Both the position numbers and the translations under genes were made by a program. Of a stretch of 63,315 bases of DNA, positions 32,357 to 47,200 are shown one piece after another (position 1 is the first letter of the stretch; every line of letters begins with the position of its first letter). This DNA comes from Bacteroidaceae bacterium (GTDB taxonomy: Bacteria; Bacteroidota; Bacteroidia; Bacteroidales; Bacteroidaceae). The stretch covers positions 1-63,315 of the forward strand of contig JAKSLJ010000017.1 of NCBI GenBank assembly GCA_024401275.1. The letters run 5' to 3'. The notes below the pieces were generated by a model, which saw only the letters and a program-made list of their open reading frames with translations, did not search any database and was not told where the DNA came from.

Positions 32357-32440
32357 AATGCAGAATGCAGAATTATGAATGCAGAATTATATGAAGCGCA
32401 GCCAAATTCTGCATTCTGCATTCTAAATTCTGCATTAATT
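32357..32440. repeat. GCAGAAT-type tandem palindromic repeat
   Basis: Units of ATGCAGAATT and complementary TTCTGCATTCTGCATTC face each other, able to form a long stem after the outer membrane protein gene. The same 7-base unit recurs at 45852-45896 and 47152-47200. Confidence 0.7.
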
Positions 32441-37346: not shown

Positions 37347-38549
37347 TCAAATTCCGAGGTAACTTTTTATGTTCTCTGCTATAGTTTTTGCGATGGCAAT
37401 GTTGCGGTCATCCCAGGCTGTGACCTTGAAGGCTGTGCGGAGGGTGAAGGCATTGGTGTCCGTTCCGCCTCCTATGCGACGGGCAATATTCTTCTTGCCA
37501 GCACCAGTGTGGTAGCGGTGGCGGTCGCTCTCATAGCCGAATTCAGACTGCAACTGGGTTGTTAGTTGCTGATAGAAGGCATCGAAGCGCTGCGTGTCAC
37601 AGATTGTGAGGTTAGGATCTGTATATCCCTCGTCACCCTTTTTCGCTCCATATATAAGGTGGAAGTGCGTTGGGTAGGATGGCTCCTCTGCACCACTTGC
37701 GCTGATGAAGAATATCACCCACTTGTCCTTGCCACGAGACAGCGACTTCACATCGTCGATGAAACGCTTGCAGTTGCTTGCCTCGTCATCAGGATTCTCC
37801 ACTACATAGAAGCTGACAGGATTGTCCTCATCCACCTCCAACTCCTTGCTCACATAGTTGAAACCGCCCAACTCTGCCACATAGTAGGCAAAGTTGCCGA
37901 TACCAGCCTCGTGAACATTAGAAGTTCCCACTATCGTGATGTTCGACTGTCTGTCAATCTTACATCCGTATGGCACACCCTCCGTAACAGGGAAATGCTC
38001 AACCACGAGTCTGTCCTGTGGATGCTCACTTGCGTTCTGCGTAGTGGCAAGGTTGCGAAGACGATAGTTAGCACCATCATTCACTGCATCCATAATGTCT
38101 TTCAGATCTATATGCTGTTTTGCTTCAATATCCACCACTGATACATAGCGAGGTTCGGTGCGTTCCTTGGTATAGCGGCACTGGCGAGGACGGAAAGCCT
38201 TTTCTAGACGAGAGCGGATAAGAATCAGTTGCTTCTCTCGTTTCTCTTTGGCGAAAGCATCCTGAAAGCCCTTTGCCACAAGACCGGCAGGTATGGCGAA
38301 GATGGACATTTTCAACATAGAGATAATTATCCATAGCAATCGTCCTGTAATTGTTATAGGGTCAGCAGGAGCAAACTTGCCAGGATTGCCAAGATAACTC
38401 ATGAACGACCATAGGATAGAATCCCACAGGCTACTATAATTCTCTGGCTGCGCTGCATGTTCAACAACATACAACAATACCGACAACACCAAAGTAAGCA
38501 CAAGTAGCACCTGCAAGCTTACCCACATCTCGCGCTTTGCTGCCACCAA
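37347..38549 (-). CDS. Pore-loop (potassium channel-like) membrane protein with large cytoplasmic domain; in-frame stop near its natural start
   Basis: 400 residues from TTG 38549. Residues about 9-30 form an outer helix and SSLWDSILWSFMSYLG a pore helix. There is no canonical TVGYG filter: the sequence reads YLGNPGKFAPADPITITG. An inner helix LLWIIISMLKMSIFAIPAGL with the K+-channel-like end AIPAGLVAKGF follows. A cytoplasmic domain of about 290 residues ends IGGGTDTNAFTLRTAFKV and is of unknown fold. The frame upstream starts at ATG 38597 (MDIRETFKGFRYF) but hits TGA at 38556-38558; the intact gene probably read through. It is the last gene of a run with DUF4268 and two lipoproteins. It may be a point-mutation pseudogene or may be translated from the internal start. 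Confidence 0.7.
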   Translation of the reverse strand: MVAAKREMWVSLQVLLVLTLVLSVLLYVVEHAAQPENYSSLWDSILWSFMSYLGNPGKFAPADPITITGRLLWIIISMLKMSIFAIPAGLVAKGFQDAFAKEKREKQLILIRSRLEKAFRPRQCRYTKERTEPRYVSVVDIEAKQHIDLKDIMDAVNDGANYRLRNLATTQNASEHPQDRLVVEHFPVTEGVPYGCKIDRQSNITIVGTSNVHEAGIGNFAYYVAELGGFNYVSKELEVDEDNPVSFYVVENPDDEASNCKRFIDDVKSLSRGKDKWVIFFISASGAEEPSYPTHFHLIYGAKKGDEGYTDPNLTICDTQRFDAFYQQLTTQLQSEFGYESDRHRYHTGAGKKNIARRIGGGTDTNAFTLRTAFKVTAWDDRNIAIAKTIAENIKSYLGI

Positions 38550-41568: not shown

Positions 41569-42591
41569 TTAGATGCCTTTAACCGTTAATATAACCTCGC
41601 CAAGTCCCTGAGAGTTGTTTGTGCTCTGAAGACCGAGGTTCTTGCGAAGATTCTTCTGAAGTTCGCGAGTGAAGTCATACACTCCGTACTGAGTACCATC
41701 GTCCTGAAGCAGAGGAATGCGTACATTAACGAAGTAGAGTTCATTGTTCGAGTTGCGTTGCATTTTGCAAGCACCCTTCACAGACTTAGCCTTGATGAAG
41801 TCCATAAACCAGTCGCTGTATGTATCGCCCTCTATACTCTGATCCTGAAGGTTTACATTGCTCTCGCCATCTACAACGATGCGTACAGTCACCTCACGAC
41901 CACGAGTAAGAATATCGGAGAAGTACTTCTGGATGTCGTTCATCAACGAAGGTAGTTTCTCCTTAAGGTCGTTCTGAATGGTTTCGGTAGTAGATTCACC
42001 CTTGATGTTGCTTGTAGTAACCGTTGCTATGCTCTTGTTGGTATAGGCATCGAGCGCAGTGAGAGTATAGCTCACGTTCTTGTTCTTATAGTCGTGGCTT
42101 GTGAGCGAAGACGACTTGTAGTAGTTCATCTCCAGAATAATGTCAGGCTGTGCAGTCTGCAAAAGTTGTGTCTTTGCATCCTGCCTCAAGCCATCAGCCA
42201 AGTCTGTAGCTGCTTGTGTCTCAAGTTGCTTGAGTGTCTGTTCGAAGTCGGTAAGTGGGTAATTCTGGTTGTTGAAAGCATCCTGGATAAATGATGCCAG
42301 ACGTGGGAAACTGTCGTCGGCAAGAAGATATTTCTTGTAGTCACGTACAATGAAATTCTTGCCATCTACTGTTGTCTCCTTCAATGCACTGAAGTTCTTG
42401 AGCGTCTGGTCGGCAGGAATTACCATAATCTGCGGACGTGCCTGTTCAATGGCATTCACATCGCCACCCTCGTAAGCTTCCATGTCACCACTTGCGCCTT
42501 CGGCAAGCGACTTGCCGTCACCATTGCCACCGCAAGAACAAAGCATCATAAAGGCAATAGCGGCAAAAATCGTGTTTTTTTTGATTTTCAT
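41569..42591 (-). CDS. DUF6175-like lipoprotein
   Basis: 340 residues. The lipoprotein signal MKIKKNTIFAAIAFMMLCSC has Cys20 followed by GGN. The mature domain begins with RPQIMVIPADQTLKNFSALK and contains PDIILEMNYYKSSSLTSHDY and YSDWFMDFIKAKSVKGACKM, resembling the DUF6175/FlgT-like Bacteroidetes lipoproteins. It is the first gene of a run of five closely spaced minus-strand genes. TACTTTTG at 42648-42641 is its likely -7 box, and the 22-base array lies immediately upstream. Confidence 0.72.
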   Translation of the reverse strand: MKIKKNTIFAAIAFMMLCSCGGNGDGKSLAEGASGDMEAYEGGDVNAIEQARPQIMVIPADQTLKNFSALKETTVDGKNFIVRDYKKYLLADDSFPRLASFIQDAFNNQNYPLTDFEQTLKQLETQAATDLADGLRQDAKTQLLQTAQPDIILEMNYYKSSSLTSHDYKNKNVSYTLTALDAYTNKSIATVTTSNIKGESTTETIQNDLKEKLPSLMNDIQKYFSDILTRGREVTVRIVVDGESNVNLQDQSIEGDTYSDWFMDFIKAKSVKGACKMQRNSNNELYFVNVRIPLLQDDGTQYGVYDFTRELQKNLRKNLGLQSTNNSQGLGEVILTVKGI

Positions 42592-42648: not shown

Positions 42649-42718
42649 ATGAAATTTAATGATTTCCCTTTGGTTCCAATTGGTTCTTTTCGCATTTGAC
42701 CGCTTGAATCACAAAGCT

Positions 42719-42938
42719 GCTCCCCGACATACGACTTATTTCTCCCTGTCGGACGACAAATATCTCCCTGCGGGACGACCCATTTTCTTATAAGAAAAAT
42801 GTTTTTTTCTAGTAAGAAATCAAAAGTTTTCTTATAAGAAATTTTTCGGTTTCTTATAAGAAAATGATTACTCCCACCAAGGAATACATTTCGTCTTACC
42901 AAAGAAGAGGATTTGTCTTACAGCCTCACGCCATCTGT
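42719..42938. repeat. 22-base periodic operator-like array (about ten units)
   Basis: Units start at 42719, 42741, 42763, 42785, 42807, 42829, 42851, 42873, 42895 and 42917, exactly 22 bases apart. Units 1-3 read like CTCCCTGTCGGACGAC (42741 and 42763 differ by few bases). Units 4-7 contain TTCTTATAAGAAA, a palindrome with centres at 42790.5, 42812.5 (degenerate), 42834.5 and 42856.5. Units 9 and 10 share GTCTTAC at 42893 and 42915. Two turns of B-DNA would put all sites on one face. It lies 70 bases upstream of the operon promoter. Confidence 0.85.
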
Positions 42939-42980
42939 TCCCCCGAAAGAAATAAACATATAAAAACAATTCTATCAGAT

Positions 42981-43128
42981 GTCCTCAAAGATTTTCTTTT
43001 TGTTTTTTGCTCAAAGATTTAGAGCCCCTTGATAAGGGGCGGCTATAATGCAGGGATACGTCGCCAAGTTAGTTTCTTTTATTTCTTAGCCAGTTTCTTT
43101 GAGCTACATATTATTTGGGAGCTTCATT
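42981..43128. repeat. Direct repeat, copy 1 (148-base unit)
   Basis: Begins GTCCTCAAAGATTTTC and contains GAGCCCCTTGATAAGGGGC (a GCCCCTT/AAGGGGC hairpin), GGCTATAATGCAGGGATACG and TCGCCAAG, then an AT-rich tail with CAGTTTCTTTGAGCTACATA. Adjacent copy 2 follows directly. Confidence 0.85.
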
Positions 43129-43223
43129 GTCCTCAAAGATTTTCTTTTTGTTTTTTGCTCAAAGATTTAGAGCCCCTTGATAAGGGGCGGCTATAATGCA
43201 GGGATACGTCGCCAAGTAAGTTT
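43129..43223. repeat. Direct repeat, copy 2 (truncated)
   Basis: Matches copy 1 through TCGCCAAGT, then diverges at the promoter of the downstream gene. Confidence 0.85.
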
Positions 43224-43300
43224 CTTTTGTTTATTATCATCAAAAAGAAATATATTCTTTGGTTCAAATTGGTTCCTTTTGCGGTAAACAGTCAAAGTTG

Positions 43301-43332
43301 TTGTTTTTATTGGAAAAATATGCTTACCTTTG
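43301..43332 (+). promoter_or_regulatory. Promoter of the HTH-type gene, nearly leaderless
   Basis: TTG at 43301 and TACCTTTG at 43325-43332 (21-base gap). The expected start site falls within a base or two of the ATG at 43341. Confidence 0.65.
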
Positions 43333-43340
43333 CAGTCAAA

Positions 43341-43934
43341 ATGAAGAAAGATAAGCCTGAATACGAAGCAATCCGTCAGATGGTGGAAGATGTGACGGGT
43401 CAAAAAATACAAACGCCGAAAGACTTTGATCTCTTGGCGCTAAGAATTCATGACCGTACAAATATCTTGTTGAGCGTTTCAACCTTGAAGCGCTTTTGGG
43501 GATATGTGGCAAAGAACGACGAGACACGCGGCGAGATGCGAAAGTCCAGCCTAAACGCCCTTGCCATATATGTGGGATTTGCAGATTGGGAAGCATTCTG
43601 CAACCGTCAGGAAACGGACAACGCAAATGATGGCAGCAACTTCTTCTATGGACATAAGCAGACAACCACTGACCATATGCAACCTGGCGACACTCTGATT
43701 GTGATGTGGAAACCTAACCGCATGATTTCATTGCGATATTCGGGCAACGATGTATGGATGGTCACTGAGAGCAGAAACAGCAAACTCTCTGTTGGCGACA
43801 CTTTCAAGTGTCATGTCTTTGTAGAACACCAGCCTTTGGTGCTCGTTGATTTAGTGCACGACGGCTTGCCACCTTGTGGATATATCTGTGGCAAAAACGG
43901 TGGTATAACGTTCCAAACACCTAAGGGACAGTAG
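43341..43934 (+). CDS. Putative DNA-binding regulator, Bacteroidetes-specific
   Basis: 197 residues from ATG 43341 (MKKDKPEYEAIRQMVEDVTG); a longer frame to 43227 covers the promoter and is rejected. Residues about 1-85 follow the pattern of a Bacteroidetes N-terminal region often seen in regulators: TPKDFDLLALRIHDRTNILL, then SVSTLKRFWGYV, then LNALAIYVGFADWEAFC, suggestive of an HTH. The C-terminal half is a beta-rich domain (GDTLIVMWKPNRMISLRYSG). It sits between copies of the same direct repeat, upstream of the divergent lipoprotein operon. Its target may be that operon or itself; this is inferred from position. Confidence 0.75.
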   Translation: MKKDKPEYEAIRQMVEDVTGQKIQTPKDFDLLALRIHDRTNILLSVSTLKRFWGYVAKNDETRGEMRKSSLNALAIYVGFADWEAFCNRQETDNANDGSNFFYGHKQTTTDHMQPGDTLIVMWKPNRMISLRYSGNDVWMVTESRNSKLSVGDTFKCHVFVEHQPLVLVDLVHDGLPPCGYICGKNGGITFQTPKGQ

Positions 43935-44138: not shown

Positions 44139-45752
44139 CTAATCTTCCGTTACAGATAGAACGTTCCAACCTTCAGCCTTACGATAAGCATCAGCGGAAC
44201 CTTTCGGCACATGGAGGTTCACATCTGTCAGGTCCTGAAAAATATTTGTTATCTCAAGCGGTTCTTTCCATTCCACATAAACATCCCTGAGCGAGTCGCA
44301 ATGCCAGAAGGCGAAATCGCCGATGCGTTCTACACCAGCAGGAATACGAATGGTTTTCATGCTGAAACATGTCCAGAACACTCCGCGCTCAATGACACGA
44401 AGGCTGCGTGGTAGCGTTATGCTATCAATGGCAGAACCGCCGAAGGCATCGCGCCTCAGCGTTGTAACACCTTCTGGCAGATGCACCGAACGGAGTTTCC
44501 AACAACCGGTGAAGAAGTATGGCGGAACATACGTCATGGACGAAGGCATTCGCACGGAACGGAAACTCAGGCAGTTGCGGATGACTGAATCGCCCATCTC
44601 GCTGATATTATCTGGAAAAGAGAGCGTTGCGAGTTTGTTTGAACCCATAAACACATTGTTGCCAAGACTCTGAAGTGTCTGCGGCATAACTATTGCCACA
44701 AGGTCTTCACACTGTCTGAAGGTGTCATCGCCTATGCGGACAACAGTGTATTTCTTGCCATTGTGCAACACATGATCAGGTATTGTAATGTCACCGCTGT
44801 AAGATCCCATTGTGCCGTTGTAGGTCAGTTCAACGGTTCCGTCTTCTTCCGAAAGAATATTGTAGTAAAGACCATCTTCTTGGAAGCTATACTGCGTAAG
44901 TTTTACTGATTTTGCTATTGAATAGATACTGTCTATCCAATGGTAGCGAATGACCAAGAAAAACGCACAGAGCAAAAGAGCAACAAGAGCTGCTATCCAC
45001 ATCATCCTCTTTCTTTTGCCAAGGGACTCAATATCCTTACGCAGTTCTTCTACGGTTTGGTATCGCTCATCAATCGGCTTTTTGCAACGGTTGATGATGA
45101 CATTGTAATTATTGCCCAACTCCATGCGCTCCATAATGCAGCCAAGACTATAGATGTCATTGCGCGAGTCGCTTACAGACAATGACTTCTGCTCTGGAGA
45201 CATATAGGCTTCTGTGCCCGAAGGTTGCTTAAGGAAAGTATAAACCTCGCTATCTGACAAGCCAAAATCAATCAGTTTCACATGTCTGCCATCGTCTGTC
45301 AGCATGATATTGCTCGGTTTCAGATCGCGATGAACCACCTGTTTCTTATGAATATACTCAACAGCATCAATCAGTTCGCGCACAATCTGCAGTTTACTCT
45401 CCTTTGAAAAATCACTCTCAAGAACTTCGCGAAGATTTCTGCCATGGACATATTCTTGCACAATGCAAGTGCCCAAGCCTTCTACCTCTTCCAGCCTCTC
45501 TGCGGAAATGATATTCGGATGCTGCAATGACGACAGAATGTCATACTCCTTTCGCAAAGCTTTTACATAAACATCCAAGCGGCGGTATTCTGCCTTCAAG
45601 CCTTTCAACATCACCCATTTGCCGTTTCTGTTTGCCTTTGTCAAAAGGCTATAACCTGCACTGGGCACTTCCAGAAGGTCAGAAAACACCGTGTCTTGCA
45701 AGTCAATCTTTTCCGTGAAATCAAAATTTGATGTTGAAACAGTCTTTGCCAT
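44139..45752 (-). CDS. Ser/Thr protein kinase fused through a membrane helix to leucine-rich repeats
   Basis: 537 residues. The Hanks-type kinase domain occupies about 30-240: WVMLKGLK has the beta-3 Lys (K50), catalytic VHRDLKPSN is at 140-148, DFG at 162-164, and GTEAYMSPEQKSLS carries the APE-like motif. One membrane helix follows at about 254-276 (MMWIAALVALLLCAFFLVIR). The remaining 260 residues are BspA-type LRR_5 repeats (for example VRIGDDTFRQCEDLVAIVMP), predicted periplasmic. The layout is like a PASTA receptor kinase with LRRs in place of PASTA domains. The signal sensed and the substrates are unknown. It starts with MAKTVSTSN after a clear gap and has no partner phosphatase nearby. 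Confidence 0.92.
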   Translation of the reverse strand: MAKTVSTSNFDFTEKIDLQDTVFSDLLEVPSAGYSLLTKANRNGKWVMLKGLKAEYRRLDVYVKALRKEYDILSSLQHPNIISAERLEEVEGLGTCIVQEYVHGRNLREVLESDFSKESKLQIVRELIDAVEYIHKKQVVHRDLKPSNIMLTDDGRHVKLIDFGLSDSEVYTFLKQPSGTEAYMSPEQKSLSVSDSRNDIYSLGCIMERMELGNNYNVIINRCKKPIDERYQTVEELRKDIESLGKRKRMMWIAALVALLLCAFFLVIRYHWIDSIYSIAKSVKLTQYSFQEDGLYYNILSEEDGTVELTYNGTMGSYSGDITIPDHVLHNGKKYTVVRIGDDTFRQCEDLVAIVMPQTLQSLGNNVFMGSNKLATLSFPDNISEMGDSVIRNCLSFRSVRMPSSMTYVPPYFFTGCWKLRSVHLPEGVTTLRRDAFGGSAIDSITLPRSLRVIERGVFWTCFSMKTIRIPAGVERIGDFAFWHCDSLRDVYVEWKEPLEITNIFQDLTDVNLHVPKGSADAYRKAEGWNVLSVTED

Positions 45753-45851
45753 TTGTTCCTTCTAAGAATTCTGCAAAAGTCCTCACGAATCATTTTGACT
45801 CATGAGGACTTTTCTATTATTGTCGCAAGTACCCAAGCAGAGCACTTTTAA

Positions 45852-45896
45852 ATTCTGAATTCTGCATTCTGAATTCTGCATTCTGAATTCTGCATT
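45852..45896. repeat. Tandem 14-base palindromic repeat
   Basis: ATTCTGAATTCTGC repeated three times, then ATT. The same unit occurs upstream of argG (47152-47200) and, in the other orientation, at 32357-32440. Confidence 0.85.
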
Positions 45897-47104: not shown

Positions 47105-47200
47105 ATTATTATTTGTTGATTTGACGATTTGTTGATTTGACGATTTACTAATTCTGCATTCTGAATTCTGCATTCTGAATTCTGCATTCTGCATTCTAAA
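47105..47200. repeat. Spacer repeats between the GNAT gene and argG
   Basis: GTTGATTTGACGATTT-type units (47114-47146) followed by ATTCTGCATTCTGAATTCTG units (47152-47200). The first type also occurs before trpS (18630-18665). Confidence 0.75.

Follow-up and report, generated by a model that had tools for sequence, protein, structure and literature searches.

A drift-free array of 22-bp units in a Bacteroidaceae chromosome is one copy of an interspersed intergenic element and may be a multi-site platform for a DNA-binding protein

The window, by which we mean the whole 63,315-nucleotide stretch of DNA that was analyzed, carries between two divergent genes an array of ten 22-bp units that keep register with zero drift over positions 42714-42933. 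The gene to its left encodes a DUF6175 protein and is the first of five minus-strand ORFs, which extend to position 37347. The array consists of four core units, each centered on a 14-bp dyad, with less regular flank units on either side. The features of the locus are as follows.

41569..42591, minus strand: left neighbor gene, DUF6175 protein (PF19672, E = 1.2e-63)
42714..42779, no strand: left flank, three 22-bp units of the CTCCCTGTCGGACGAC kind (CTCCC type) starting at 42714, 42736, and 42758
42784..42797, no strand: core unit 1 (unit start 42780), type A, TTTCTTATAAGAAA, a perfect palindrome
42806..42819, plus strand: core unit 2 (unit start 42802), type B, TTTCTAGTAAGAAA, asymmetric, sets the polarity of the array
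42828..42841, no strand: core unit 3 (unit start 42824), type A, TTTCTTATAAGAAA
42850..42863, no strand: core unit 4 (unit start 42846), type A, TTTCTTATAAGAAA
42868..42933, no strand: right flank, weaker units at 42868 (CCAAGG) and 42890 (CCAAAG) and a decayed unit at 42912
43320..43934, plus strand: right neighbor ORF, no Pfam match, alternative TTG start at 43227

Other repeats are present in the window. A perfect 73-bp direct duplication (42980-43052 and 43128-43200, 148 bp apart) lies right beside the array and contains a GCCCCTTGATAAGGGGC near-palindrome, and tandem 7/14-bp repeats of the AATTCTGC type recur at 32357-32436, 45851-45896, and 47150-47197. A single ORF at 44139-45752 fuses a protein kinase domain to BspA-type leucine-rich repeats.

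Positions 42719-42938 had an autocorrelation of 0.576 at lag 22; at lag 44 the value was 0.472. Shuffling the same stretch with its dinucleotides preserved gave 0.265 ± 0.031 at lag 22, and none of 2,000 shuffles was as high as the observed value; nor did any of 500 shuffles attain that value at a lag between 10 and 59. The array is also the sole place in the window with 50 of 88 matches at lag 22. Chance periodicity is ruled out by the shuffles together with this window-wide scan. Tandem Repeats Finder, run with a minimum score of 30, did not report the array. An earlier note on this DNA, which had described about ten 22-base units in a strict two-turn register without drift and had proposed comparing their autocorrelation with that of shuffled controls, is borne out on these points. 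The right-flank units are 73% identical at a spacing of 22. The letters of the left-flank units are local, since a pattern search with CTGTCGGACGAC gave one exact match and eight matches with at most one mismatch, fewer than the 18 obtained with the reversed control.

The core units recur across the genome from which the window was taken. TTTCTTATAAGAAA is found there in 97 copies, whereas among 397 other genomes of the same genus it is present at all in 12, with no more than two copies in each (the set of 398 is an even sample of a larger group). The 3.2-Mb draft genome also contains 62 exact copies of TTTCTAGTAAGAAA and 100 forward matches to TTCTTATAAGAAA. The type B unit, which had earlier been read as a degenerate palindrome, is thus a second standard unit and shows no decay. 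We read 48 arrays, including that of the window; because every one of the 62 B cores falls within them, together with 89 of the 97 A cores, the genome holds roughly 50 arrays. When up to two mismatches are allowed, four core units are present in 31 of the 48 and three in 13, the rest having 1, 1, 2, and 5. The step between core units is 22 bp in 106 of 124 cases and 23 bp in 15. On both sides of the cores, and in the same register, lie looser CCTWGG flank dyads, whose consensus in this genome is near TCGTAT.CCCwAGG.TTACGA (the left-flank consensus comes from 44 oriented arrays); the left-flank units in the window are a local version of this dyad. Flank units are often duplicated locally with locus-specific letters, as in the arrays L012, L013, and L055, where the units are near-identical. 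The two motif classes that the earlier note had seen in one register are therefore the core and the flank of one recurrent element.

The arrays lie between genes. By crude ORF calls, which were used for gene orientation and ORF counts in place of the annotation, a frame of at least 150 codons crosses 1 of the 48 cores (L016), and that frame overlaps a longer ORF; frames of 80 to 109 codons touch four further cores. The 91 ORFs that flank the arrays match 110 Pfam families, each of them in at most two proteins, and no Rep family is found among the 25 listed of these 110. With the arrays of this genome and of relatives (see below) pooled, divergent genes bound 16 of 94, where 26% would be expected from length (P = 0.06), and convergent genes bound 22 of 94, where 15% would be expected (P = 0.04). 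The convergent excess comes from the window's genome alone (15 of 45, compared with 7 of 49 in relatives), and so we give it no weight.

These placements bear on the array's relation to the adjacent operon, of which it had been taken to be a local feature. A site for a cooperative regulator dedicated to the operon beginning at 42591 would fit the strict register and the position between divergent genes. About 50 arrays of the same kind adjoin unrelated genes, however, and a preference for promoter regions is absent. Association with one regulon or with promoters was found neither in the Pfam families of the flanking ORFs nor in the placement of the arrays, and we reject a gene-specific operator as extremely improbable. 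The suggestion of cooperative protein binding survives in part: the register suits proteins bound side by side, but to describe the array as the regulator site of a single operon is too restrictive.

The letters of the core units are conserved in an uneven pattern. Over 166 core units, selected by at most two mismatches to a 12-mer, positions 5 to 9 and 14 to 18 are 97 to 100% conserved. This selection flatters positions 6 to 17; positions 5 and 18 lie outside the 12-mer and are conserved at 98% and 97%. Conservation is 75% at positions 4 and 19 and mostly 37 to 48% in the remaining spacer, while the four central bases are either TATA (type A) or those of the B form. The A+T content of internal spacers is 88%, compared with 62 to 63% beyond the outer units. 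B and its reverse complement occur together in none of the 48 arrays, 22 of which contain at least two B units. When arrays are read in the B orientation, 42 of 44 begin with an A unit, and they end with A in 23 cases and with B in 21. The arrays therefore have polarity, given that the B orientation is never mixed and that the first unit is nearly always A. At about 50 places, then, this genome keeps the dyads to the letter and lets the spacers vary.

The same layout is found in relatives with other letters. We scanned for it without reference to any motif, taking 66-bp segments with at least 41 matches at the best lag of 12 to 44 and removing low complexity; the thresholds were fixed after the arrays of the window's genome had been inspected. 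Stretches of 16 other genomes of the genus, 1.16 Mb in all, gave 51 matches at lag 22, whereas the 21 other lags from 14 to 35 gave 6 in all. At least one lag-22 match was found in 14 of the 16, with none in the 40 kb scanned of each of G153 and G201, and three of the 51 lie less than 500 bp from another. The 190 kb of one P. nigrescens record yielded nine lag-22 matches versus two. Other families of the order, represented by stretches of sixteen genomes (261 kb), gave one lag-22 match, at L124:11585-11709 in G034. None of the 51 matches within the genus lies more than half inside a called ORF of at least 150 amino acids, and such ORFs make up 81% of the scanned DNA. Compared with column-permuted controls, dyad symmetry is significant at P ≤ 0.05 in 30 of the 51 and at P ≤ 0.01 in 26; the other 21 do not show significant dyad symmetry. 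The scan of 400 kb of the window's genome lying away from known cores gave four lag-22 matches that look like the flank type and have no TTTCTTATAAGAAA core (L259:6334-6506; L269:446-660, with starts at 446 and 537; and L269:18119-18288) against 16 matches at the 21 other lags together, a noisier background than in the relatives.

The core letters are, for example, AAAATAGCCTATTTT and GTTATTAAC in G044, TTTTCATGAAAA in G162 and G326, and CTTGCGTCAA in G016; a slightly altered GTTATTAAC also occurs in G060, where the core letters include TTACCAG....TGGTAA. The layout is thus common to the genus, and the letters differ between species and between array families. In G044 and G060, one and the same gene (64% identical) has arrays with different letters at its 3' end (L077 and L078), where it is possible that the letters were replaced in place; this is a single case, found since both arrays were already in hand. 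At the other loci of that gene that were fetched, including one from G043 (63%), a clear array is absent from this position, and L090 and L092 reach 46 of 66 and 38 of 66 lag matches at other places. G148 and G326 share an interspersed family of about 340 bp, the copies of which (L197:3884-4205, L197:9815-10152, L198:7571-7910, and L211:1541-1923) are 77 to 81% alike and have a 22-bp array in mid-element.

One published repeat appears to belong to the same class. According to PMC4755523, PINSR is a 188-bp intergenic repeat without known function that occurs in P. intermedia, P. nigrescens, and two related species, two strains having 177 and 184 copies of it; it lacks terminal inverted repeats, is not a MITE, and is also found downstream of tnaA. 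A family of about 190 bp in G100, for which 40 of 296 first-look candidates were scored, has ten places in the P. nigrescens record NZ_CP082843.1, the best of them 82% identical over 69% of the query. One of its copies stands some 230 bp beyond the 3' end of a Beta_elim_lyase frame of 459 codons, which we take to be tnaA; four of five lyase loci have a copy nearby, so that this proximity is weak alone. On the strength of the P. nigrescens match, the length, and the copy beside tnaA, it is very probable that the G100 family is PINSR. Thirty aligned copies share a strict four-unit 22-bp core with looser flanks, in which unit 4 closely resembles unit 2 or 3 in inverted form, and they are alike along about 190 bp.

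The window's family resembles PINSR in being intergenic, in its many copies, in the absence of terminal inverted repeats, and in its four-unit 22-bp core, but its letters are different and it does not share the 188-bp sequence: positions 42700-42940 gave no match to the 30 G100 copies at E ≤ 0.01 by blastn or blastn-short. Where PINSR is described in the cited portions of PMC4755523, it is a 188-bp unit of one clade, and 22-bp units, dyads, and relatives across the genus are unmentioned. The array accordingly belongs to a class of interspersed intergenic repeats with PINSR as the one published member identified, and its own family stands outside PINSR by sequence. The remark in the earlier note that it recognized no described element here holds in part, since PINSR appears to belong to the class.

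PINSR also makes the case for an element without function, a mobile or amplified non-coding repeat kept by copying, in which the 22-bp pattern would come from slippage. Its high copy number without known function suits such an origin, as do the local expansion of flank units and the common family of G148 and G326; the likeness of PINSR copies along about 190 bp fits amplification as well and counts against a binding platform, as does, within the window's genome, the resemblance of L014 to L030 and of L044 to L050 described below. In the window's genome, by contrast, the spacers and most of the flanks vary between copies and the dyads do not, so that copying alone is insufficient, and the 22-bp step is constant across families with unrelated letters. 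We regard this explanation as rather unlikely. The ends of a MITE were sought by all-against-all blastn of the 48 core-masked loci and rejected: no side stretch matched more than 11 of the 47 others, and neither common ends nor left-right complementarity, as of inverted ends, was found in these 48 loci.

Since the units are palindromic, we considered that the arrays might be transcribed, as a structured RNA or an array of hairpins acting as a terminator or an RNA processing signal. The near-inverted unit 4 of PINSR is suggestive in this respect, and the model of the plant microRNA precursor MIR2606 matched the window's array with an E value of 0.0023, at 34.8 bits against a gathering score of 139.7; a palindromic array can cause such a subthreshold match. 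Complementarity between left and right flanks is no greater inside a locus than across loci (3,445 of 5,000 permutations over 48 loci reach the observed mean), and at one variable position of the PINSR stem the bases pair in 12 of the 28 copies that were parsed (2 of 30 being unparsed; Fisher P = 1). Array polarity is independent of the strand of tandem neighbor genes (7 same, 14 opposite, P = 0.19), and no Rfam family reached its gathering score on any array in the seven sources searched. An RNA or cruciform hairpin fits badly with the flank complementarity, the stem pairing, and the Rfam result, and we consider it very improbable.

The letters of REP elements differ by species, as do those of the arrays, and a selfish REP-like repeat could be spread by an HUH (IS200-like, Y1) transposase that recognizes the array in the manner of a RAYT. 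Y1 genes of the Y..Q.EHH kind correspond to subclass 1.2 in the classification given in the cited part of PMC6006769. Genes of this kind lie within about 1.1 kb of arrays in G016, which are of the family common in that genome (L182, L183, and L188; three gene copies, one of them broken), two Y1 genes lie equally close to arrays in G138 (L185 and L186, the array at one of them being of the family common there), and the window's genome has one Y1 candidate, at G000:C21:3159-3611, with an array 1.4 kb away. The association looked convincing from G016 and G138 but was weakened by counts from the wider set. Array density is alike in the 10 genomes without PF01797 (21 in 480 kb) and the 6 with it (30 in 681 kb). 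A profile of 23 Y1 proteins matched 3 of 17 genomes at E ≤ 0.1, one match being a fragment, and 9 of 15 array-bearing genomes are without a Y1 gene of that kind. Arrays lie within about 1.5 kb at 7 of 43 Y1 loci, compared with about 5.8 expected at the background threshold. On these counts we consider such a partnership unlikely.

Other known systems resemble the arrays in part. REPs act as paired hairpins with a transposase; the arrays are like REP and BIME elements in being dispersed intergenic palindromes with species-specific letters, but their dyads stand in a direct 22-bp lattice, and the transposase kind that was tested is missing from the array-bearing genomes just counted. Plasmid iterons are direct repeats about two helical turns apart on which an initiator binds side by side; iterons are found at a replication origin, however, and the arrays at about 50 intergenic places on the chromosome. 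The earlier contention that the array is unlike a CRISPR or an ordinary tandem duplication is supported, the repeat-spacer format of the former being absent: the arrays have 14-bp dyads, 8-bp spacers of mostly A+T, and mostly three to four units, at about 50 places. BrickBuilt of Porphyromonas gingivalis is likewise an interspersed intergenic element of short imperfect direct repeats in the Bacteroidales, with 23-nt repeats (1 to 22.8 per element) inside an element that its authors class as a MITE and that has leader and tail segments; the two-motif 22-bp dyad register has no counterpart in the description of BrickBuilt given in the cited part of PMC4596501. Among the titles and abstract openings listed by searches of the open-access literature, there was no description of 22-bp dyad arrays in the Bacteroidales. 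There was no match of the exact two-unit patterns to viral contigs, of the window's array to plasmids, of the G100 element to phages, or of the G326 and G148 families to plasmids; among genome contigs, the two-unit pattern gave one match, in Clostridium, which we take as chance.

The reading that we prefer, with a probability of about 0.5, sees in the array a single copy of an intergenic element that is interspersed in the genome and serves as a multi-site protein-binding platform. Dyads two helical turns apart, conserved half-sites, free spacers, and weaker sites at the sides argue for DNA that is read by a protein, and from these sites we infer the existence of the protein. Such a putative protein would be a sequence-specific dimer that occupies neighboring core dyads along a single face of the helix; the existence of units A and B would be accounted for by two types of half-site, TTTCTTA and TTTCTAG. 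From the core it may extend into the weaker flank sites. Iterons and partition sites are multi-site binding platforms, and the array may work in an analogous way. Against a platform stand the 21 of 51 matches in relatives that lack significant dyad symmetry and the three that lie close to another match.

If the element is such a platform, it would act chromosome-wide, in the organization, insulation, or partition of DNA, and not on one operon. The spacing of the arrays hints at a role on the scale of the chromosome. The smallest gap between arrays along contigs is 13.8 kb, larger than expected for random placement (P = 0.007 for 27 arrays with 11 gaps, on contigs C1 to C19, for which the list of A cores is complete; P = 0.0009 for all 48 arrays with 16 gaps), and the mean log gap likewise indicates even spacing (P = 0.013 and 0.004, respectively). 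The spacing test was picked after the gaps had been seen, and it rests on 11 to 16 gaps in a draft assembly and counts only arrays with exact cores. Even spacing was also sought in PINSR and is absent there, with four copies lying within about 14 kb.

A bolder reading, which we hold to be less likely than not, is that chromosomes of Prevotella (the genus itself being inferred) carry a lattice code, composed of four-dyad 22-bp arrays with spreading zones, set at intervals between genes, and a dimeric reader that forms a lattice, whose letters change from species to species. The recognition letters of the protein would change between species, and the sites would follow. If this is true, the lattice code would be a fast-evolving system, centromere-like or chromosome-organizing. 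We know of no bacterial counterpart to such a chromosome-wide lattice system.

The results tie PINSR, an unexplained repeat of oral Prevotella, to a genus-wide class, members of which can be found, despite unrelated letters, by the simple rule of a 22-bp dyad lattice with about four core units. Should a protein read the arrays, its specificity would have changed repeatedly while the geometry stayed constant, and DNA-protein coevolution on whole chromosomes would become testable; the arrays would also offer a mapped set of sites for the study of chromosome organization in the Bacteroidota.

Some arrays of the window's genome have further features in their surroundings. A second dispersed repeat, GATGTAGGGCGAGGATTTCCGAG-like and accompanied by its inverse, lies near the arrays L013, L016, L025, and L026, and the members of two pairs of loci, L014 and L030 and L044 and L050, look like copies of each other.
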